From positions 1 to 58,499 of IMG/VR virus record IMGVR_UViG_3300027777_000004: 58,499 nt of DNA. One strand, given 5' to 3'. Every line of letters starts with the position of its first letter. The stretch's first letter is position 1. Positions 25,015 to 44,475 of this stretch are shown piece by piece. Source of the DNA: a virus. The notes beneath the pieces are model-generated. The model searched no databases and was not told the origin of the DNA. It saw only the letters and a program-made list of their open reading frames with translations. The position numbers were made by a program, and so were the translations under genes.

Positions 25015-25272
25015 ATGAGAGAGATTGGTCATGCGGTCGGTTTTCTTATTAGGCGCACCAGTACGTGGACAGGAACGGCGCATCTATACGATGGCAAAGA
25101 TACCCACTGTCGAATGTGGTCTACCGGGGGCATGAGGAAGTCGAAATATGACTACTATCCAACCATTGATGCCGTACTTTCGGTCAACCAAAACGCCACA
25201 ATCTGCACCCTGTGCGCGGCCCGTGGCGTAGATGACGGCCCCGTCCACCAACAGGTCGGTGGTAGCTCTTGA
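25015..25272 (+). CDS. Hypothetical small protein with a CxxC pair
   Basis: An 85-residue protein with SD AGGAG before ATG (the frame is open slightly upstream). It has a CTLC pair near residue 67 and a single Cys in DTHCRMWSTG, so metal binding is possible. It opens the operon of small genes that follows the gap. Function unknown. Confidence 0.55.
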   Translation: MREIGHAVGFLIRRTSTWTGTAHLYDGKDTHCRMWSTGGMRKSKYDYYPTIDAVLSVNQNATICTLCAARGVDDGPVHQQVGGSS

Positions 25273-25323
25273 CACGCCCGTACAACTAAGAAAGACGGAC
25301 AACCCTAATAAGAGGAGCTGACG

Positions 25324-30868: not shown

Positions 30869-31095
30869 GCGGCGAGTTCCTCCTGCGGACGGCTGAGAGA
30901 TTCGGCGTCCCGGTGGTGCTGCTGATCCTGCTCCTTTGGTGGGCGCGCACTGATATTGTGCAGCCGCTTCTGAACGCCCATTTTGAAATGGTCGGCAAGA
31001 TAGTGGAGGGGCAGGAGACTCATACCAAGGGGCTGGATAGCCTAGGCCGCAAGCTGGATGAGCTTATCTCTGCCACCAAAAGCCTAAGCAGATGA
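30814..31095 (+). CDS. Single-span membrane protein, holin- or spanin-like
   Basis: A 93-residue protein with SD GGGAG. After a polar N-terminus there is one membrane segment (FGVPVVLLILLLWWA, about residues 30-45) and then an amphipathic helical tail (KIVEGQETHTKGLDSLGRKL) that looks like a coiled coil. This topology fits a holin of the single-span class or an inner spanin. It is ATGA-coupled to the sigma-like gene. Confidence 0.6.
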   Translation: MSSRTAEATAADDKSNPLGGEFLLRTAERFGVPVVLLILLLWWARTDIVQPLLNAHFEMVGKIVEGQETHTKGLDSLGRKLDELISATKSLSR

Positions 31096-31604
31096 CACGG
31101 CTCACCGCCGAACAGCAGCAGCTAGCAGAAGACGCAATCAGATATTGCGGGCCAGTGATAGCGCAATTCCTCAAGGTCAACGATGACCTAAAGAGAGCGG
31201 CCCGCAGGGTAGACCTAGCCAGCACTGCCATGTACGCGGTGTGCTTGGCGGCAACTACCTATGACGCAGAGAAGTCTAAGCCCTCTACGTATTTCAGTAT
31301 CGCCATTCGGCATGCACTGATACGGGCAGTGCTGCGGCAGCAGAAGCTCGACGGCAGATACATAGCAGTGGAGTCCCTGCTAGAGCCATCGCCCAACGTC
31401 CACCGCACACGGCAGGAGATGCGTGCGCTCAAGGCCCTCAAGAGTCTCTCGGCCTATGATAAGACGCTGCTCGAAGACCGGCTCATCGAAGCCGTTACCC
31501 TAGAACAACTGGGCCTAGAGCAACGACTTGATCCCCGCACCGTAGCCAAGAGGGTATCATCGGCCATCGACAAGCTACGCCGTGCGGAGGACAATCTCCC
31601 CTGA
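31092..31604 (+). CDS. RNA polymerase sigma-factor-like protein
   Basis: A 170-residue protein. Residues about 35-85 resemble sigma70 region 2: helical, with AARRVDLASTAMYAV, YDAEKSKPSTYFSIAIRHAL and IRAVLRQQK, matching the 'FDP..g..FstYa...Ir..i' core. Residues about 113-165 resemble region 4 with a helix-turn-helix: LSAYDKTLLEDRLIEAVTL, EQLGLEQRLDPRTVAKRV, then IDKLRR. Region 1.1 and 3 are absent, as in short ECF-like factors. It could redirect host RNA polymerase to late or middle phage promoters. It is last in the rightward unit and ends overlapping the leftward recombinase gene by 30 bases. Confidence 0.75.
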   Translation: MTRLTAEQQQLAEDAIRYCGPVIAQFLKVNDDLKRAARRVDLASTAMYAVCLAATTYDAEKSKPSTYFSIAIRHALIRAVLRQQKLDGRYIAVESLLEPSPNVHRTRQEMRALKALKSLSAYDKTLLEDRLIEAVTLEQLGLEQRLDPRTVAKRVSSAIDKLRRAEDNLP

Positions 31605-35152: not shown

Positions 35153-35462
35153 CTTCGTCCTCTTCGGGGTTAGGGGTGGTGGTATCGTCCTCTTCGTTCT
35201 CTTCCTCGACTTGGTTGTCGGGATCGTCGTACTCCGACAGGAACCACTGCACATCAACCAGCATGCAGTAGGCTTGCTTGAGGCAGTCCTCCTTCTCCTG
35301 CTGCTCCTCAGTCACGCCAGCGATAGGGGTGGTCAACACAATCTTGGGACTCAGCTCCCGAAACGGTGCTATCGTTCTGCGCAGTCTGGCAATGAGAGTC
35401 TCCGTTCGCAGGGCATGGAACATCAGCCCGTTGCTGGGCTTGGGTGTAGTGGACATCGTCAT
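35139..35462 (-). CDS. Hypothetical protein with acidic tail
   Basis: A 107-residue protein. N-terminal two thirds are helical with ALRTETLIARLRRTIAPF and QEKEDCLKQAYCMLVDV, followed by a long Glu/Asp-rich tail. ATG overlaps the stop of the LexA-like gene. Function unknown. Confidence 0.55.
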   Translation of the reverse strand: MTMSTTPKPSNGLMFHALRTETLIARLRRTIAPFRELSPKIVLTTPIAGVTEEQQEKEDCLKQAYCMLVDVQWFLSEYDDPDNQVEEENEEDDTTTPNPEEDEDECE

Positions 35463-35743
35463 TCATCTTCTTTCTTGGTGACGTAGCTACGCCAGTTGTA
35501 GGAAATACCTCGGGCTCCACAGACTGTGACCTCTTTCTTCTTCACTAAATTCTTGACCATCTGAGCAATGAAGTTCAGGCTAGTCCAACCAAACGCCTTG
35601 GCTATCTGACGATAGGACGGCTGGACCCCCGTCTTATCTATCGACATGGCCACCATGACAAGCAGCTCATGCTCACGGGGCGTAAGCCCCTTGGGCGGGG
35701 CGGGCATTGCTGCCCTGCCCCGCCGCCCGGGTTTAGCTTTCAT
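35459..35743 (-). CDS. LexA-type winged-helix DNA-binding protein
   Basis: A 94-residue protein. After a basic N-terminus, LTPREHELLVMVAMSIDKTG, QPSYRQIAKAFGWTS, NFIAQMVKNLVKK matches the LexA N-terminal winged helix (LTxxQxxxLxxIxxxxxxxGxxPSxxEIAxxxG). No autocleavage protease domain follows. It could be a phage regulator controlling the leftward genes or lysogeny. Its gene is ATGA-linked to the next. Confidence 0.7.
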   Translation of the reverse strand: MKAKPGRRGRAAMPAPPKGLTPREHELLVMVAMSIDKTGVQPSYRQIAKAFGWTSLNFIAQMVKNLVKKKEVTVCGARGISYNWRSYVTKKEDE

Positions 35744-36141
35744 GCACCCGCCTTTGCCACCTGCGCCGTTTCATTGGCAGCAGCAGTCTTGGTGGGCATC
35801 CGCTTGTGGCAGACCTGCGACACGGCACCGCCGGTGCATTTAACACCCATACGCCGTGCGATGATCCGCCACTTGAGCCCTGTCCCCCGCATTTGCAGAG
35901 CGGCGAGGAGCATATCGTCAGTCCACTTGAGCTGACGATGGCGGCGAGTGCGGCGAGTGACAGTGACCGGCTTGTCGGGAGTCACCCGAATAACCTGCAC
36001 ACCGCCCCGACGCACAGTGCCAGCAGGCTTGTGTGCTACCGCTTTGGGCATTGCAGCAGACAGCTCGAACCCCTGCCGCAGCAGTCGGGTCATTGCCATC
36101 AACTCGGCGGTATCAATCTCTTTATAGATTACGAACTTCAT
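35740..36141 (-). CDS. Putative DNA-binding regulator (HTH/Myb-like)
   Basis: A 133-residue protein; ATG at 36141 with GAAAGGC as SD. The middle is basic (TRRTRRHRQLKWTDD), followed by MLLAALQMRGTGLKWRIIAR and RMGVKCTGGAVSQVCHKRM, which reads as a helix-turn-helix of the Myb/GcrA-like kind. It lies just before the LexA-like gene and after a G-rich element copy. Regulatory function is inferred. Confidence 0.6.
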   Translation of the reverse strand: MKFVIYKEIDTAELMAMTRLLRQGFELSAAMPKAVAHKPAGTVRRGGVQVIRVTPDKPVTVTRRTRRHRQLKWTDDMLLAALQMRGTGLKWRIIARRMGVKCTGGAVSQVCHKRMPTKTAAANETAQVAKAGA

Positions 36142-36184: not shown

Positions 36185-36231
36185 GTGTCGGACAACCCGA
36201 CACACTACCCCTCGCCCCCGCCCCTTCGGGG
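36185..36231 (-). promoter_or_regulatory. G-rich element copy A with following hairpin
   Basis: On the minus strand CCCCGAAGGGGCGGGGGCGAG continues into GGGG and then a GTGTCGG/CCGACAC hairpin (36185..36203). It lies 44 bases before the ATG at 36141. One of six copies; this is the most diverged core (GCGGGGGCGAGGGGTAGT). No T-run follows the hairpin. Confidence 0.6.
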
Positions 36232-36245
36232 CAGGGAATGTCGAA

Positions 36246-37241
36246 TCAACTCACGAACAAAGTGTCTGCCATCGACGCAAGGGTGGGGAGCTGAACGTAA
36301 ACGGCCGTGATCTGCTGACAGTGAACCGCCCAGAACGGCGGGCATGTGGACACACTCATCAAAGTGTCGCCGCGTCGCAGATACAAGGCCAGCGTCGTGT
36401 CATACTGCCCCATCAAGTCACCGAAGTCGATTGGCTGGGCGAAAGCCCATGTGGCAAACTGACAGCGCAGTTGATGGAGTCGAGCATAGGCAGTGCGAAT
36501 GCTATACATATGCTCATCCAGACAAGCCGGTCGGTCGGGTAGCTGCCGCACTGTGTTCAACAGTAACGACCATGAGATGCTATCGACGTACTCTACGTCG
36601 CGTTTGCCGCCACGGCTGGTGTATGTCTTCATGAAGGGCTGGGCATTCTTGCTGTTACCCCTCTGGTAAATCACTGTGCTGGGCAAGTACGCCGCCAGTT
36701 TCTTGAGCATGCACTGTATCTCAGACGGCTTAGGCTTTACGATCACGCCGCATCTTGCAGCTCTCTGAATGTCCTTGAAGGCAATGCGATAGTGCGTGGA
36801 ACTTTCACCGTCGCATGTAGTTAGCCCACTGAGATATTGGGGGTCGGTGCCGCTGTGGTTCGTGCGAGCCCCAAGCGTTTTGCTGTGCCGAAGGTCAATG
36901 TCATCGATGCCCTCATACTTTAGGCTCGAATGCGGACTACGGGGACAGCCCAGCGCAGCAGTGACATAGCACAACTGATTGAGGGCATGCCCGTAATCGA
37001 AGAGCTGATACCGCAGGTAGGCGGCGTTTGCTAGGGCCCAATAAAGCCGACGCATATGCACCGACAGGCCAGAGTCAATAGCGCGGGCATTCACGCAGTG
37101 ACGGGCCAGCATGTCATGCAAGAGAGTCCCGGGGAAATGACCATCAATGCTGCCCTCGGGAGCGGCACAACGCAACTGCGCATATGCGTAGTCAGCGTTG
37201 GCCTTCTCGAAGGGGGTGAGGTCGAAACAATTACCAGCCAT
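36246..37241 (-). CDS. Hypothetical protein downstream of the MoxR/VWA module
   Basis: A 331-residue mostly helical protein with many His, Tyr and Cys residues (NARAIDSGLSVHMRRLYWAL, QLFDYGHALNQLCYVTAALG). No known motif. It follows the VWA-like gene in the same leftward operon, so it may act with that module. It ends just before element A. Confidence 0.5.
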   Translation of the reverse strand: MAGNCFDLTPFEKANADYAYAQLRCAAPEGSIDGHFPGTLLHDMLARHCVNARAIDSGLSVHMRRLYWALANAAYLRYQLFDYGHALNQLCYVTAALGCPRSPHSSLKYEGIDDIDLRHSKTLGARTNHSGTDPQYLSGLTTCDGESSTHYRIAFKDIQRAARCGVIVKPKPSEIQCMLKKLAAYLPSTVIYQRGNSKNAQPFMKTYTSRGGKRDVEYVDSISWSLLLNTVRQLPDRPACLDEHMYSIRTAYARLHQLRCQFATWAFAQPIDFGDLMGQYDTTLALYLRRGDTLMSVSTCPPFWAVHCQQITAVYVQLPTLASMADTLFVS

Positions 37242-37243
37242 AT

Positions 37244-37318
37244 CTACTTACTCCCGTTGATAAAAAGGTGGAACACAATTACGGCACAGACAAGGGCGAA
37301 CATGGAGTCAGCCTGCAT
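37244..37318 (-). CDS. Tiny single-span membrane peptide
   Basis: A 24-codon frame (MQADSMFALVCAVIVFHLFI...) whose ATG has GGAGG five bases before it, inside the end of the VWA gene. The hydrophobic stretch SMFALVCAVIVFHLFI would span a membrane once. Its stop is 2 bases before the next gene. Small size limits confidence. Confidence 0.4.
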   Translation of the reverse strand: MQADSMFALVCAVIVFHLFINGSK

Positions 37319-38726
37319 AGCCGCCTCCATTCCGGTACAGATGGACAACCTTGGCCCATGGTGGTGTGGGATAGCCCTTGCATTCCTCAGTAAGTGCGAT
37401 GATGACCCTCGCCCTCGGCTTGGCACACCATCCCGTTTCACCATCGGTCAGCACGACAATCGCATCGGGCCGATCCTCTTTGTCCACCGTCGTTACTGCC
37501 AGACCCATGTCAGTACCGCCGCCGCCCTGCCAGACAAAGTTCTTGAGGCTTTGAACCTCCTTGCGGGCCTGCATTCTGGCATCGAAGCAGGTTACTTTCG
37601 GACGCTGCACCTGCCGTAATCCTGCGGCTAGTGCAACAAGTGCCCGCTGAATGTTGTCACCGCTGGACATGCTGCCAGAAGTGTCAACGATGATCGAACA
37701 CTGAGGGGATACCCTTGTCACGCCCCGTTTACGGGGGCCATCGGGGTCTTGCCGACGAGACAGCTTCTTATAGGTCAGCTCATCCGTTCCGATGGGGCTG
37801 GCAACAGACCTCGCAGCAAACGTCCTGAGTTGCTGAAAGGGGTCAGGCTGGGGACGAAGACGGGCAGCGATAGCTGCCGCCAACGTACCTGCCCCTCTGC
37901 CGGGAGTAGATTGAATGGCCTTCTCAATCTCCTCCAACTGCTGCACCTGACGAGCAATGTCGCCCATCTTGCACGGCTTCTCCCATGGTTTGGGCACACC
38001 GTCAGACGCACTGCCCTCCATGTCGGGGTCATTGTTCGGCCCCTTGGAATCGTTGTCTGGCTGGTCATCACCACTGCCAGTGCCGCCGCCAGACTTCTTC
38101 TTCTTTTGGGGCCCAGGCTGGCCATCATCTCCCGTACCATCAGACCCACCATCGTCGCCGTCGTCTCCGTCCTCCCCCTCTTGCTCATCCTCTGCCTCGG
38201 GGGCCTTCTTCTTGCGGAAGTAGGGGGCAAGCAGCCCGACATAGGCTTCCGTTGTCAAGCCGGAACGCACCATTGGGATGTCCGCAAACGGGCACTCGAA
38301 GTCTGGCAGATGGCTAGACAGTTGGAGTGCATCGTCAGGGAGTGTGGTGTCACGGGCCAGCAGTTGATTAACTGCTAGGTCTGCGGCAATGTTCCACAGT
38401 TTGCACTGGTCTTCAGTGGGCATGCCACCCATCCAATCCTCTCGCCGCTTGGCATGAGAGAGGGCCAGATGGTAGACCTCATGAATCATGATCGCAGCCA
38501 AGTCAGCTTTGGAGCGGGTGCTACACCGCTCTTCGTTGACATAGAGCCTGCCCACCTTGTCCACGGCCATGACCGGGACTTCGGCAGTTATGATTACGGG
38601 CATACCAACAAGCGTCCGGTAGAAGTAGGGGCAGATTGCCCCTGCCAACTTGCGGGCAGCATAGAGCTTCTTACGAATGTCACTGATGGGCTTTCGCCCC
38701 TTGGGAATCGGAAGGATCGAAGTCAT
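37308..38726 (-). CDS. VWA-domain / metallopeptidase-like partner of the MoxR ATPase
   Basis: A 472-residue protein; ATG at 38726 with GGAGG upstream (a TTG at 38735 is in frame). The N-terminal part has AAIMIHEVYHLALSH, an HExxH zinc-peptidase motif (about residues 82-86). The middle (about 165-265) is a low-complexity Asp/Gly/Pro/Lys linker. The C-terminal VWA-like domain has IVDTSGSMSS, a MIDAS DxSxS metal site near residue 345, and a GGGTDMG segment. This order (metallopeptidase-like domain then VWA-like domain) matches the DUF2201-type proteins encoded beside MoxR ATPases. Confidence 0.8.
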   Translation of the reverse strand: MTSILPIPKGRKPISDIRKKLYAARKLAGAICPYFYRTLVGMPVIITAEVPVMAVDKVGRLYVNEERCSTRSKADLAAIMIHEVYHLALSHAKRREDWMGGMPTEDQCKLWNIAADLAVNQLLARDTTLPDDALQLSSHLPDFECPFADIPMVRSGLTTEAYVGLLAPYFRKKKAPEAEDEQEGEDGDDGDDGGSDGTGDDGQPGPQKKKKSGGGTGSGDDQPDNDSKGPNNDPDMEGSASDGVPKPWEKPCKMGDIARQVQQLEEIEKAIQSTPGRGAGTLAAAIAARLRPQPDPFQQLRTFAARSVASPIGTDELTYKKLSRRQDPDGPRKRGVTRVSPQCSIIVDTSGSMSSGDNIQRALVALAAGLRQVQRPKVTCFDARMQARKEVQSLKNFVWQGGGGTDMGLAVTTVDKEDRPDAIVVLTDGETGWCAKPRARVIIALTEECKGYPTPPWAKVVHLYRNGGGYAG

Positions 38727-38731
38727 GGGTA

Positions 38732-39826
38732 TCAACCCTCCAGTTGGGAAACGATGCGGGAGTAACGGGTAAGCAGGGACATGGGGATCTCGTACTGCGG
38801 GAACAGTTCCGTGATCTGTGCCAGTGACGGCACGGACAGCTCGGCCAAGTCGTTCTCGGCCATGGTCACAAGAATTTCCGACAGCTTGTTCAGCCGCTTT
38901 TCGGTGGGGTTCAGTGCTGCTGCACTGAGCAGTGCAGTAGGCAGGCAGGCAAGAACGTCGCCCCGGTCGCCGTCCATTTCGATGACGACCTTGCCGTCGA
39001 GAGCCTCATCGGGATCGTACAAGTCGATAGCATCGACATAGCGGCCCAGCTCCACGGCACAACCTTCACCGACGATGCCTGTCGCCAGCTCCATTCGGAC
39101 ATCGGCATCAGCACCCACCTTGTCGGCACCTGCCAGACAGAGGGACAGGTTGTACCAAGCACGAAGCGACTGAAAACCGAAGGCGTTTTCGTCGATTGTC
39201 TTGGCCTTGCGAAGCCCGACGTTGGCCTTGACCAGATTGCTGGTGAGCCGCATCCACTTGGGCACATAGGCACTGAAGTCACCGACAATCGGCAGGTTTG
39301 TAGGGGGCGAGAACACGCCGCCCTTCTGCATGCCGTCGTACCAAGAGTCAAACGGCAGTGCCCATTGGTGGTGGTAGCACCGATTGAGCAGAGCGGGCTC
39401 AAGCGGAGAGCCATTGGGACAAAGCTCGGGAGGGTTAGCAGCACCAGCCCGAATGGTAGTGGGATGGAACTCAAGCTTGCCAATGCGGCCTTCGTTGAGC
39501 GCACTGAGGAGCAATGGCTTCATCGTCGGGGAGGACGTTGTGATTTCGTCGATCATGAGGAACCAGTTGGGGTTCGTCAGTGCGAGGATGAACTCCATCG
39601 GCAGCATGTCAACGATCCGCTTCAGCAAGTCGGGCACCGGCAGACCACTCAAGTCATCAGCACAGTGCTGGCTGGGCACGAAGCAGAAGAAGTTCATTCC
39701 CAGAGCCCGGGCAATAGCCATGCCCATGGCCGTCTTCCCCTCGCCAACACCGCCCCAAGCGATGGAAGCCACACCGCACTGGAGTGCGATGAAGTAGGAG
39801 ATGTTCAAACAGGTCAACGTATTCAT
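38732..39826 (-). CDS. MoxR-type AAA+ ATPase
   Basis: A 364-residue protein. Walker A is GGVGEGKT (about residues 25-32), Walker B WFLMIDEIT (about 88-96), sensor 1 AGAANPPE (about 128-134), and the LLNRC segment supplies an arginine-finger-like Arg. The C-terminal 150 residues are helical and less conserved. With the VWA-like partner directly downstream it forms a MoxR/VWA pair, a chaperone-like remodelling system that inserts metals or activates target proteins in bacteria. The phage target is unknown. Upstream lie a terminator-like hairpin and a G-rich element. Confidence 0.85.
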   Translation of the reverse strand: MNTLTCLNISYFIALQCGVASIAWGGVGEGKTAMGMAIARALGMNFFCFVPSQHCADDLSGLPVPDLLKRIVDMLPMEFILALTNPNWFLMIDEITTSSPTMKPLLLSALNEGRIGKLEFHPTTIRAGAANPPELCPNGSPLEPALLNRCYHHQWALPFDSWYDGMQKGGVFSPPTNLPIVGDFSAYVPKWMRLTSNLVKANVGLRKAKTIDENAFGFQSLRAWYNLSLCLAGADKVGADADVRMELATGIVGEGCAVELGRYVDAIDLYDPDEALDGKVVIEMDGDRGDVLACLPTALLSAAALNPTEKRLNKLSEILVTMAENDLAELSVPSLAQITELFPQYEIPMSLLTRYSRIVSQLEG

Positions 39827-39852: not shown

Positions 39853-39893
39853 GTGAAAAAGAACGTCGGGGCTCGGAACACCCGAACCCCGAC
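39853..39893 (-). terminator. Terminator-like hairpin in the MoxR leader
   Basis: On the minus strand GTCGGGGTTCGG and CCGAGCCCCGAC form a 12-bp stem (one G-U) with a 5-base loop, followed by GTTCTTTTTC. It sits between the G-rich element and the MoxR start, so it could terminate the upstream transcript or act as an attenuator for moxR. Confidence 0.7.
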
Positions 39894-39895
39894 AG

Positions 39896-39927
39896 AAAAC
39901 CCCTCGCCCCCACCCCTTCGGGGTTAG
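39896..39927 (-). promoter_or_regulatory. G-rich element copy B
   Basis: Minus strand reads CTAACCCCGAAGGGGTGGGG followed by GCGAGGGGTTTT. The same sequence from CTAACCCC to CGAGGG is repeated at copies C and D. It lies just after the stop of the 39930 gene and before the moxR leader hairpin. Confidence 0.7.
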
Positions 39928-39929
39928 GG

Positions 39930-40811
39930 CTATTTCGCCATCTTGATACCTTCAGCACCGATAGCAGCCCGAGTGCTAGCGATAGCACTCTTGCACCGGC
40001 TGAATGGGCGACCGAAGAACGAAGCCATGGTCTTGAGCTGTTGCTCTGACTCCATCAGCTCCTTGATGCGACGAGACTGCCCGTTCTTGCGAGGGGCAGC
40101 ACCAGTGGCATACAGAGCCTTGATCTCGGCCTGCATCTCATCGCAGTGTTGAGTGAGACGCTCCTCGAAGAACTCACTGACCTCTTTGACAAGGTCGAGA
40201 TTCATCTCGGGGCTAAACACAACACGACTCAGCTTCGGGCCATGCTTGGACAGCAGGCCACCGACTGTGATATAGGGGTCCATGTTGTCCCTAGTCACGA
40301 AGTAGACGCCGCCACCATCACGCAACAGCACGCCCTTCATCTTCTTGATGAGCAGCACTATCGCCATGGTCACCTTGTTAGCATCGACCACCGACAGTGC
40401 GGCGGTGAACTCAGCTTGTGCTGCTTCACGCAGTGCCGTTTGGTCGCCAACTAGCAGGGTGTCTACGCTGGGGTCCACTTCCAGCAGCTTCACGCCGCCA
40501 GCCTTGGTAACGCCAAGGCTGAACAGAAACGGGTAGAGGTTCTTCTTCAGCCCCTTCTGAAACTGCCGAACCTCGACGCCGATAGCGTCCCGGTCGGACT
40601 GAAGCGGGCGAATGTCCACCTTGCAGTCATCGGTCAAGCCAAGAGCTTGAGCGACAGTGCGAGCGGCCTCTCGAATGCAGTGCATTTGATCGACCTTGGG
40701 AACCATGTGGCCGAAGCCGATGGCATCGAACGCAGCCTGCAAAAACTGCCGCTGCATTGCGGTCGCCTTCCAGAAAAGGATGGCACCTTCACTACTGACC
40801 TTACGAATCAC
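39930..40811 (-). CDS. Hypothetical protein upstream of the MoxR/VWA module
   Basis: A 293-residue protein; GTG at 40811 is chosen because AAGGAG lies 6 bases before it (a TTG start 51 bases upstream is also in frame). Mixed alpha/beta; segments include KVTMAIVLLIKKMKGVLLRD and GGGVYFVTRDN, then a helical C-terminus with a Lys/Arg-rich patch. Proteins of about 300 residues often precede MoxR/VWA pairs in phages (DUF6744-like, from memory, not verified). It may be part of the module. Confidence 0.6.
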   Translation of the reverse strand: MIRKVSSEGAILFWKATAMQRQFLQAAFDAIGFGHMVPKVDQMHCIREAARTVAQALGLTDDCKVDIRPLQSDRDAIGVEVRQFQKGLKKNLYPFLFSLGVTKAGGVKLLEVDPSVDTLLVGDQTALREAAQAEFTAALSVVDANKVTMAIVLLIKKMKGVLLRDGGGVYFVTRDNMDPYITVGGLLSKHGPKLSRVVFSPEMNLDLVKEVSEFFEERLTQHCDEMQAEIKALYATGAAPRKNGQSRRIKELMESEQQLKTMASFFGRPFSRCKSAIASTRAAIGAEGIKMAK

Positions 40812-40871
40812 GGGAATCTCCTTACGTCTTTGGGTGTGAAACTCATTGTCTGGGTCTGTCAAGAGCTACAA

Positions 40872-40922
40872 AACGAAGAGGCCCACTGGCTACGCTCATG
40901 CGCAACCAGTGGGCCTTCGTTT
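40872..40922 (-). terminator. Long hairpin, probable terminator
   Basis: GGCCCACTGG and CCAGTGGGCC form a 10-bp stem with a 16-base loop, extended by AACGAA/TTCGTT outside a two-base bulge. On the minus strand it ends CTTCGTTTTG. It lies 24 bases after the acidic gene's stop and should terminate or buffer that transcript; it is nearly symmetrical and might act in both directions. Confidence 0.7.
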
Positions 40923-40945
40923 ACGGTGGTTTCCTGAGTGCTGGA

Positions 40946-41344
40946 CTAGCTCTTCTTGAGCTTGGCCAGCATCTCATCGGCGTTGTCGCGGATCACTTCG
41001 ATGAGGGTGCAGAGAGCATAAGTGAAGTCACCCATGGGATCGGCTTCCTCCTCGTCGTCCTCATCGTCATCGCCATCGTCTTCGTCCTCCTCCTCCTCTT
41101 CGTCGGCCTCATCCTCGACCACCGGGATGGGCCTTCCCCGAAGACTGCCGAGCGTCTTCACCGGGGCGACTTCCTCCTCCTCTTCCTCCTCTTCCTCTTC
41201 CTCTTCCTCCTCTTCCTCGACGGCAACCGGGGCAGCCGGTGCCGAACGACCATTGCGAGGGGCAGCTACCGCCGCCGTCGCCTTGGCACCGCCGAGTTTG
41301 CGGAGATTTTCCAGAGCTTTGCTGCTAACAATCGACTTTGCCAT
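40946..41344 (-). CDS. Poly-Glu/Asp acidic protein
   Basis: A 132-residue protein starting at MAKSIVSSKALENLRKLGG with SD TAGGAG; the upstream extension is rejected. After an Ala/Pro-rich linker come 16-17 consecutive Glu residues (near 43-59) and a second long Glu/Asp block (about 79-100), then a short helical C-terminus. Such proteins can mimic DNA or bind basic proteins. It has its own leader with a strong terminator-like hairpin and a G-rich element. Confidence 0.75.
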   Translation of the reverse strand: MAKSIVSSKALENLRKLGGAKATAAVAAPRNGRSAPAAPVAVEEEEEEEEEEEEEEEEVAPVKTLGSLRGRPIPVVEDEADEEEEEDEDDGDDDEDDEEEADPMGDFTYALCTLIEVIRDNADEMLAKLKKS

Positions 41345-41420
41345 CGAACAGACTCCTACTAACAGGGTGAAAAGAACAACTCCGTCGAGTTCCGACATTG
41401 GAACCCCCTTGTCAAGATCA

Positions 41421-41464
41421 AGAACAAAAAACACCGGGCCGGTCGGAAACGATCCGACCGGCCC
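41421..41464 (-). terminator. Terminator-like hairpin in the acidic-gene leader
   Basis: On the minus strand GGGCCGGTCGG and CCGACCGGCCC form a perfect 11-bp stem with a 7-base loop, followed by GGTGTTTTTTGTTCTT. It stands between G-rich element C and the acidic gene's ATG, as in the moxR leader. Confidence 0.75.
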
Positions 41465-41470
41465 ATCGAA

Positions 41471-41498
41471 CCCCTCGCCCCCACCCCTTCGGGGTTAG
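41471..41498 (-). promoter_or_regulatory. G-rich element copy C
   Basis: Minus strand CTAACCCCGAAGGGGTGGGG continues GCGAGGGGTTCG. Identical to copies B and D over the first 25 bases. It follows the stop of the 41536 gene and precedes the leader hairpin of the acidic gene. Confidence 0.7.
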
Positions 41499-42665: not shown

Positions 42666-42721
42666 GTTATGCCCATGAGTAGTGAGATACGGGAACCGAC
42701 CGACGCCGGAACCACCGGAGT

Positions 42722-42767
42722 GTTTTCCCCGGCGAAAACTCCCTCGCCCCCACCCCTTCGGGGTTAG
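42722..42767 (-). promoter_or_regulatory. G-rich element copy D with hairpin
   Basis: Minus strand CTAACCCCGAAGGGGTGGGG continues GCGAGGGAGTTTTC, then a GTTTTC/GAAAAC hairpin around GCCGGG. It precedes the first leftward gene. Confidence 0.7.
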
Positions 42768-42995: not shown

Positions 42996-43013
42996 GTGGG
43001 GGCGAGGGGTTTT
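42996..43013 (+). promoter_or_regulatory. G-rich element copy E
   Basis: GTGGGGGCGAGGGGTTTT, 41 bases before the ATG at 43054, first gene of the rightward unit. The leading CCCCGAAGGGG part of the leftward copies is absent here. Confidence 0.7.
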
Positions 43014-43053: not shown

Positions 43054-43257
43054 ATGAAAGCTTCCAAATTCAGCCTACTGCACCAAAAGAATTGGGACGT
43101 ATTCAAGCTGAATTTCAGCACACTGTGGGCCTTCAACACCACAGTCGAAGGATGGTACGTCCAAGCCTACAACCGCCACAGAGTCTATGAGGGCGACTTG
43201 TATGGCCCGTTTGAATCAAAGGCCGCTGCAATCTTCTGGCTTGTAGGCCAGAAGTGA
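43054..43257 (+). CDS. Hypothetical small protein, first rightward gene
   Basis: A 67-residue protein with SD AGAGGA. Aromatic-rich (NWDVFKLNFSTLWAFNTTVE, GWYVQAYNRHRVYEG), compact alpha/beta look. It stands directly downstream of element E. Function unknown. Confidence 0.6.
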   Translation: MKASKFSLLHQKNWDVFKLNFSTLWAFNTTVEGWYVQAYNRHRVYEGDLYGPFESKAAAIFWLVGQK

Positions 43258-43494: not shown

Positions 43495-43536
43495 GTGGGG
43501 GCGAGGGGTTTTTTAGACCGACGACGATGTCCGTCG
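43495..43536 (+). promoter_or_regulatory. G-rich element copy F with hairpin
   Basis: GTGGGGGCGAGGGGTTTT (43495..43512) followed by CGACG/CGTCG (43522..43536), 38 bases before the ATG at 43574. AT-rich sequence (TATATAGGCAATGAAATAAT) lies just upstream of the element, unlike at the other copies. Confidence 0.7.
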
Positions 43537-43573: not shown

Positions 43574-43975
43574 ATGGCGAAAAAAGTATCCGCGAAGTCT
43601 GTGGAAATGGTCACAGTTCCCCGTGAGGAGTATGACCGTCTCACGGCCGGAAAGGCGACCGGCGGAACGGCGAGCGCGGCCGATGGGACATTCTCTGAGC
43701 CTAAGCCGGATGAAGACTACAACCAGTATGAGCGATGCCGAGTTTTGATCGGTGGCGGCATTGCCCGATGGACTGTCAGCAATGGCGGATGGGTACACCT
43801 CCAGATCGACTTCGTCCCACAAAAGGGCCGGGGAGCGCGAGCCGGATTCGGTGGGTATTTCGGACGCTGGAGGGACCGCTACATGAAGTATTTCCGCTCG
43901 ACCTTGTTCACAGATGACCTTGACGCTTGTCGGCTGAATGGTGCAATTGAAGCACCAACGGCGAAAAAGAAATAG
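43574..43975 (+). CDS. Hypothetical protein with its own element and terminator
   Basis: A 133-residue protein with SD AAAGGG. The N-terminal 45 residues are Lys/Ala/Thr-rich, the middle is beta-like (RCRVLIGGGIARWTVSNGGW) and the C-terminus is basic (PTAKKK). It has G-rich element F upstream and a strong intrinsic terminator downstream, so it forms a single-gene unit and may be made in quantity. Function unknown. Confidence 0.65.
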   Translation: MAKKVSAKSVEMVTVPREEYDRLTAGKATGGTASAADGTFSEPKPDEDYNQYERCRVLIGGGIARWTVSNGGWVHLQIDFVPQKGRGARAGFGGYFGRWRDRYMKYFRSTLFTDDLDACRLNGAIEAPTAKKK

Positions 43976-44002: not shown

Positions 44003-44037
44003 AAAACCCCTCCCGGGAAACTGGGAGGGGTTTTTTT
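44003..44037 (+). terminator. Rho-independent terminator
   Basis: AAAACCCCTCCC and GGGAGGGGTTTT form a stem with loop GGGAAACT, followed by seven T. It is the clearest intrinsic terminator in the window. A second small hairpin, CCGATTG/CAATCGG (43984..43999), lies just before it. Confidence 0.9.
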
Positions 44038-44118
44038 ATGCCCATTGTGCAACGTCCGATAATGTTTTGGGCGCGACGGTTTTCCCCAGCCTGTTAGTAT
44101 GAATGGGGGGGTATGGTC

Positions 44119-44258
44119 GGCCAGCAGGCAGGCAGGCCACGCCACGCCATTGCAGGCAGGCCACAGCACAGCAGGCACAGCATCGGCCAGCAGGCAGCAT
44201 CGCACAGCAGGCAGCATCGCACAGCAGGCAGGCAGGCATCGGCCAGCAGGCAGCATAT
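44119..44258. repeat. GCAGGCAGC-type tandem repeat region
   Basis: About 140 bases of imperfect repeats built from GCAGGCAGC, GCAGGCAGGC and CAGCATCG. CAGCAGGCAGCATCGCA occurs twice in tandem (44188..44204 and 44205..44221) and partial copies flank it. It lies in a 590-base stretch with no gene (44038..44628). No coding frame on either strand looks real. Confidence 0.75.
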
Positions 44259-44475
44259 GGGCGCAGTTGTGCGACACTCACAGGCAACATTTTGGAACGC
44301 TGAACCGGAACCGGTTCCATGGGCCTTGACGCAAACCCTTTGCAGGAGCGGACTTACGACACGACCGCACCCCGGACCCCCCCGCCGCCGCACCGACCCC
44401 ACTCACATACCCCCTCCAAAATAAATCCAAATTAGCAAAGTGGTTAGTGCCATACCCATTTGATTAACACCCCCT

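Follow-up and report, generated by a model that had tools for sequence, protein, structure and literature searches.

The window, that is, the whole stretch of 58,499 bases analysed here, belongs to a freshwater phage, denoted W, and its first and last 99 bases are identical. Late genes lie on the plus strand, and the early operon runs along the minus strand from ~42.7 to 31.6 kb. No DNA similar to W was found among 50,697 phage records, whereas a query with the W terminase recovered 63 IMG/VR loci; relatives are labelled G002, G008, G011, G015, G017, G023 and so on. Relative G002 (53.4 kb) is collinear with W at roughly 75% nucleotide identity. Searches with single early proteins of W returned no relatives, and the W/G002 ATPase alignment, used as a query, returned only G002. 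A 3.2-kb contig from a Planctomycetia MAG carries a terminase 74% identical to that of W, a weak hint that Planctomycetia may include the host. Since the phage family encodes an integrase, lysogeny is plausible.

The early region of W contains six copies of a short element. Four copies of a 24-nt sequence, at up to 3 mismatches, were found against 0.01 expected, all on the minus strand: copy A (36208..36231), a GCCCCGAAGGGGC stem-loop followed by GGGGGCGAGGGG, precedes the HTH gene 36141-35740; copy B (39900..39923) begins 6 nt after the upstream stop codon and precedes a MoxR-like ATPase gene; copy C lies at 41471..41494; and copy D (42740..42763) stands at the head of the operon within which A, B and C are located. 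The 14-nt core, GTGGGGGCGAGGGG, occurs exactly twice more, both times on the plus strand, at 42996..43009 before gene 43054-43257 and at 43495..43508 before gene 43574-43975 (a one-sequence structural model of the product of the latter, with pLDDT 43, was set aside). The exact W element was found in none of the IMG/VR and GTDB genomes. The first-pass annotation had described hairpins without a T-run at A, D and a further copy, which holds for A (36185..36203 (-), 7 bp) and D (42714..42733 (-)) but not for the plus strand, where the copy at 43495 has a weak downstream hairpin and the copy at 42996, devoid of an ACCCC-type stem-loop, has none. Further along, a two-way terminator, AAAACCCCTCCC...GGGAGGGGTTTT, lies at 44003-44034 between convergent regions, one arm resembling the GAGGGGTTTT of the element, and a non-coding stretch with repeated TGCCTGCTGGCCGATGC units occupies 44100-44260.

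At B and C, the order reported in the first-pass annotation, namely the element, then a strong hairpin with a T-run, then the gene start, was confirmed, with stems of 13 and 12 pairs, respectively; the element and hairpin lie between two genes as described, and the order at both loci is kept in G002. Hairpin B (39864..39894 (-); 13 pairs, two of them G.T) is followed by the T-run TTCTTTTTC (39855..39863 (-)) and by the MoxR-like ATPase gene (phrog_1297; 38732..39826 (-), 364 aa, ATG at 39826). The ATPase adjoins a metallopeptidase-VWA protein (DUF2201), and this module (37308-39826 (-)) is common to W, G002, G017 and G023. Hairpin C (41435..41465 (-); 12-13 pairs, 12 of them perfect) is followed by a T6 run (41426..41431 (-)), present in G002 too, and by a gene (40946..41344 (-), 132 aa, with an alternative in-frame upstream ATG at 41398) for a small, Glu-rich acidic protein with long glutamate/aspartate runs. 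In the 33-52 kb region, the two hairpins belong to the top four terminator-like stems by length, and terminator-like sites as a class (19 against 15.2 +/- 3.9 in shuffles) are not above the shuffled level there. Both recur in G002 with compensatory changes; at C, the two top pairs are exchanged on both sides. The hairpin at locus B is also present at the orthologous place in G017 and G023, hence in four phages including W, but its T-run is weak or absent in the orthologues (GAGTTTTAC in G002, TTCACTTG in G017 and TTTCATTC in G023) and good only in W.

Terminators do not appear to be linked to the element, because a T-run follows only two of the six W copies and one strong terminator in the same operon, at 40879..40916 (-), is conserved in G002 without any element, being followed by TTGACA (40862-40857) and a 295-aa gene. 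Of the larger gaps in the early operon, eight in number, two hold both element and terminator, which is the chance level (~0.4, hypergeometric count), and 'element then terminator' is not demonstrably a general rule. The TTGACA motif also occurs at 25269-25274 (+) and at 41410..41415 (-), after terminator C, where it is conserved in G002 and is a candidate promoter. In most phages compared, TTGACA is conserved ~50 nt upstream of the gene 25324 orthologues, which makes it a likely promoter element; the sites are often followed after 6 nt by TANNAT or TANNAC, with no -10 at the usual distance. At some places GCTCTTGACA resembles boxA, but the counterparts in G008, G013 and G017 have CTATTGACA or CGATTGACA, without the GCTC part, so that what is conserved is TTGACA and a boxA identity is not favoured. 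At C, the conserved CTTGACA past the hairpin makes a start there possible, and the downstream gene may be transcribed from it, a situation that the first-pass annotation had itself named as counting against its proposal. At B, no promoter motif and no TTGACA was seen in the ~30 nt between the T-run and the ATG, and RNA of the ATPase gene therefore probably runs through hairpin B. The proposal that the element controls read-through is thus upheld in part: the order is kept in G002 and RNA probably crosses hairpin B, but the terminators are not tied to the element.

Comparison with G002 showed that the element changes in concert. Copy A has no counterpart there; at loci B, C and D the CCCCGAAGGGG stem-loop (ACCCCGAAGGGGT) is kept and the tail reads AGTGCGGTG in place of the GGGGGCGAGGGG of W, such that all three orthologous minus-strand copies read ACCCCGAAGGGGTAGTGCGGTG. 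The two plus-strand sites of G002 share GTGCGGTG, whereas W has GGGGGCGAGGGG at all places. The G-rich tail has accordingly been exchanged at all five G002 places, pointing to a phage-specific regulator, because the relative replaced every copy at the same places. If these were ordinary gene boundaries, with intrinsic terminators followed by TTGACA promoters and the element no more than a passive repeat between genes, the terminator followed by CTTGACA that W and G002 share at C and at 40.9 kb would be explained; however, B has no TTGACA, and the concerted replacement of repeats at orthologous places, together with their absence from coding sequence, needs selection or purposeful gene conversion, which leaves this reading quite improbable.

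Private repeats were found in four further relatives, making five with G002: GCGGATTTCCGGCAAC in G008 (24 copies), GAACTAACGGCAAGGG in G011 (13), TGACCCCGCGACATAG in G015 (12) and TTGASGCTCGTTCGGCAGGT in G023 (4), these phages having a 74-76% identical terminase, or less. Every copy found reads in sense with its downstream gene and lies, by the median, a short way from the next start; most copies are intergenic (W, 5/5 counted; G008, 18/24; G011, 13/13; G015, 11/12; G023, 4/4), against a background intergenic share of 9-23%. When IMG/VR was scanned for the elements of W/G002, G008 and G011, no further contig had more than one copy; single 16-mer matches in unrelated contigs correspond to the chance expectation. 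In W, G002 and G023, a hairpin follows ~13 of 15 copies, mostly within ~10 nt, and the local hairpin after the 15 copies is stronger than at other early-region intergenic positions (pooled Mann-Whitney p = 4e-5, a rough value given that the control positions overlap). The general pattern is thus a private element, usually a hairpin within ~10 nt, and then a gene. By contrast, the 12-24 copies in G008, G011 and G015 lie directly before ribosome sites, without a downstream hairpin, and several of them are arranged in tandem at the operon head. The elements of the two sets of phages do not align convincingly, and it is their layout that would join W, G002 and G023 with G008, G011 and G015 as one system, by analogy. 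The proximity to ribosome sites in the latter three would fit an element of translation initiation comparable to the cluster K mycobacteriophage SAS; in W, however, the element lies 45-75 nt or more from the start codon, with a hairpin in between, and we regard this as the least probable of the readings. A protein of the GP88 family (mycobacteriophage L5 gene 88 family) is encoded among the first early-operon genes of G008, G011 and G015. An AT-rich motif, GGAAAAAATCCARGAGCGGGACATATATA, either a promoter or a replication origin, is highly conserved near operon heads (G008 57182 (+), G011 4697 (-), G023 17518 (+), G009 2681 (-), G021 17650 (+) and G025 710 (-)).

Folding of the element as RNA gave a mixed picture. 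All 7 minus-strand copies of W and G002 contain a C(GAA)G stem-loop, with compensatory changes in the stem of copy A (G-C for A-T) and at locus B. The flank of copy A lengthens the pairing to 9-10 pairs, and that of locus B matches the tail of its own phage (-18.3 and -16.2 for the native combinations; -10.5 and -11.9 with flanks swapped between W and G002). The extended stem is individually significant at A and B only, being no better than with random flanks at C and D, and was rejected as a general feature on the joint p of 0.22 and the two plus-strand copies, which have no stem-loop. A G-quadruplex as the conserved function was likewise rejected, the G002 tail AGTGCGGTG having no G-runs. 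In the four leaders folded, no alternative pairing of element against terminator reached comparable stability, loss of the terminator stem costing 8.6-15.6 kcal/mol. Neither a leader peptide nor a put or nut signature was found, and Rfam gave no match at the gathering threshold and no credible one below it. The suggestion that the element is a put or nut site or a simple attenuator accordingly gains no support, with neither mutually exclusive folds nor leader peptide, riboswitch, put or nut signature in evidence.

Control of read-through at the RNA level could nonetheless take another form, in which a phage protein, or RNA polymerase itself, binds the transcribed stem-loop and its purine-rich tail, so that downstream hairpins and terminators are passed. 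The sense orientation, the shared stem-loop with its compensatory pair at A and native match at B, the hairpin within ~10 nt after most copies, and the presence of sites on both divergent early units, like nut and put sites, are in favour of this. Opposed to it are the plus-strand copies, the extended stems at C and D, the scarcity of T-runs together with the terminator that lacks an element, the hairpin-free copies of G008, G011 and G015, and the consideration that processive antitermination should need one site; on balance, we see it as possible but doubtful. That each phage would carry a private code of this kind, with a leader stem-loop or box plus a hairpin for each early unit and a fast-evolving factor, the sites being rewritten together while their places stay fixed, appears distinctly unlikely.

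Alternatively, the elements might be private promoters served by a phage-specific activator or polymerase, RNA starting 6-8 nt past the element and the hairpin being an mRNA-stabilising 5'-terminal stem-loop. The gap between element and hairpin, mostly 5-9 nt, equals the usual distance from a -10 box to the RNA start; G008, G011 and G015 have one element per gene and short leaders; concerted change is typical of phage promoters; and it would no longer be puzzling that a terminator precedes the gene. Against this, no single-subunit RNA polymerase was found with PF00940, in a weak search whose control matched nowhere either, and no polymerase motifs were seen in the large proteins. In G008, G011 and G015, moreover, the true promoter could be the conserved AT-rich motif found ~135-165 nt ahead of the first copy, although an origin is another possible role for it. 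A sigma-like protein (31092-31604 (+); Sigma70_r2 at 25.2 bits with a cut-off of 24, and a weak r4) is ill suited as a private factor, because it is conserved across the family (at least 60%) while the elements are not. Taken together, these points make private promoters rather unlikely.

The search for a factor extended to other proteins of the early region. A LexA-like HTH protein (35459-35743) was rejected as the private factor, its recognition helix being identical in W and G002. The recognition region of the HTH protein downstream of copy A (35740-36141) differs between the two phages, and gene 36246-37241 forms the fastest-changing W/G002 pair (28%). No regulator varying together with the element was identified, and a phmmer search of six-frame translations with Bxb1 gp69 for a Bxb1-type repressor gave no match at E 5.

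Our preferred explanation, to which we assign a probability of roughly 0.4, is that the element is a binding site for a phage-specific regulator, placed in early leaders in a stoperator-like manner. The element would be a sequence-specific, one-directional site, and the regulator would be phage-encoded and different from phage to phage. One site would lie in the leader of most early units: D stands where the minus-strand operon begins, A, B and C lie within that operon, and the units opposite have the two plus-strand copies. By occupying this site, most probably on the DNA and with the site working as an operator or as a barrier to elongation, the regulator would determine whether polymerase goes on into the early gene that follows, much as the cluster A mycobacteriophage repressor does at stoperators. 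The downstream hairpin would belong to the leader RNA, and at C, perhaps also at B, it would double as an intrinsic terminator isolating neighbouring units. Four points here are inferred: the binding of a protein, DNA and not RNA as its target, its role as a repressor, and elongation as the step under control. We thus prefer a DNA-bound regulator, followed by RNA-level read-through and then by private promoters; under either of the first two, elongation within the leader would be the step acted on, and this is the part of the first-pass proposal that survives. If a private regulator does read these sites, a family without relatives in the annotated phage collection searched would have evolved a layout like that of mycobacteriophage immunity sites, and would show a genome rewriting all its regulatory sites together. 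Pairs of the W/G002 type, with the same places and different letters, would then be natural specificity-swap experiments.

Several known systems offer comparisons. The N4 virion RNA polymerase recognises promoters formed by a C(GNA)G hairpin on the template strand; an N4-like hairpin promoter was rejected here, the C(GAA)G of W being on the non-template strand and its large proteins having no polymerase motifs. The nut site of lambda consists of boxA followed by a phage-specific boxB hairpin and works with the N protein. As in W, such sites are phage-specific and have changed in concert on both early transcripts, but no boxA/boxB was found in W, no N-like protein was recognised, and W has copies internal to the operon. 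The put sites of HK022, one per early transcript just past the promoter, span ~70 nt with two long stem-loops (PMC9378689) and bring about antitermination in cis with no protein needed. They share with W the stem-loops in both divergent early leaders, followed by terminators; unlike W, with six copies, four of them inside or at the head of one operon, and plus-strand copies without a stem-loop, put sites are conserved in sequence and have no copies inside an operon. SAS of cluster K phages, a 13-nt consensus GGGATAGGAGCCC at the ribosome site, is common across subclusters, and ESAS has an inverted repeat (PMC3203893). Like the W element, these are repeats before gene starts, of unknown function, but the W element is private, at least 45 nt from the start and not at the ribosome site.

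The closest parallel is with the stoperators of cluster A mycobacteriophages, at which the repressor (L5 gp71, Bxb1 gp69) blocks elongation by binding and which do not call for hairpins. Stoperators number 20-30 in each genome; they are asymmetric, point in the direction of transcription, occupy short intergenic spaces and differ between subclusters together with the repressor (PMC6550527, PMC9283540). The likeness is limited by the six copies in W (24 in G008), the unrelated sequence, the presence in W, G002 and G023 of hairpins past the element, and the fact that neither a homologous repressor nor an element-linked regulator was identified. What the systems have in common is short asymmetric repeats in one orientation with transcription, located in short early intergenic spaces, with a phage-specific consensus and, in G008, G011 and G015, clustering at the early operon head; indeed, Bxb1 stoperators lie directly before the ribosome site, as do the copies in G008.
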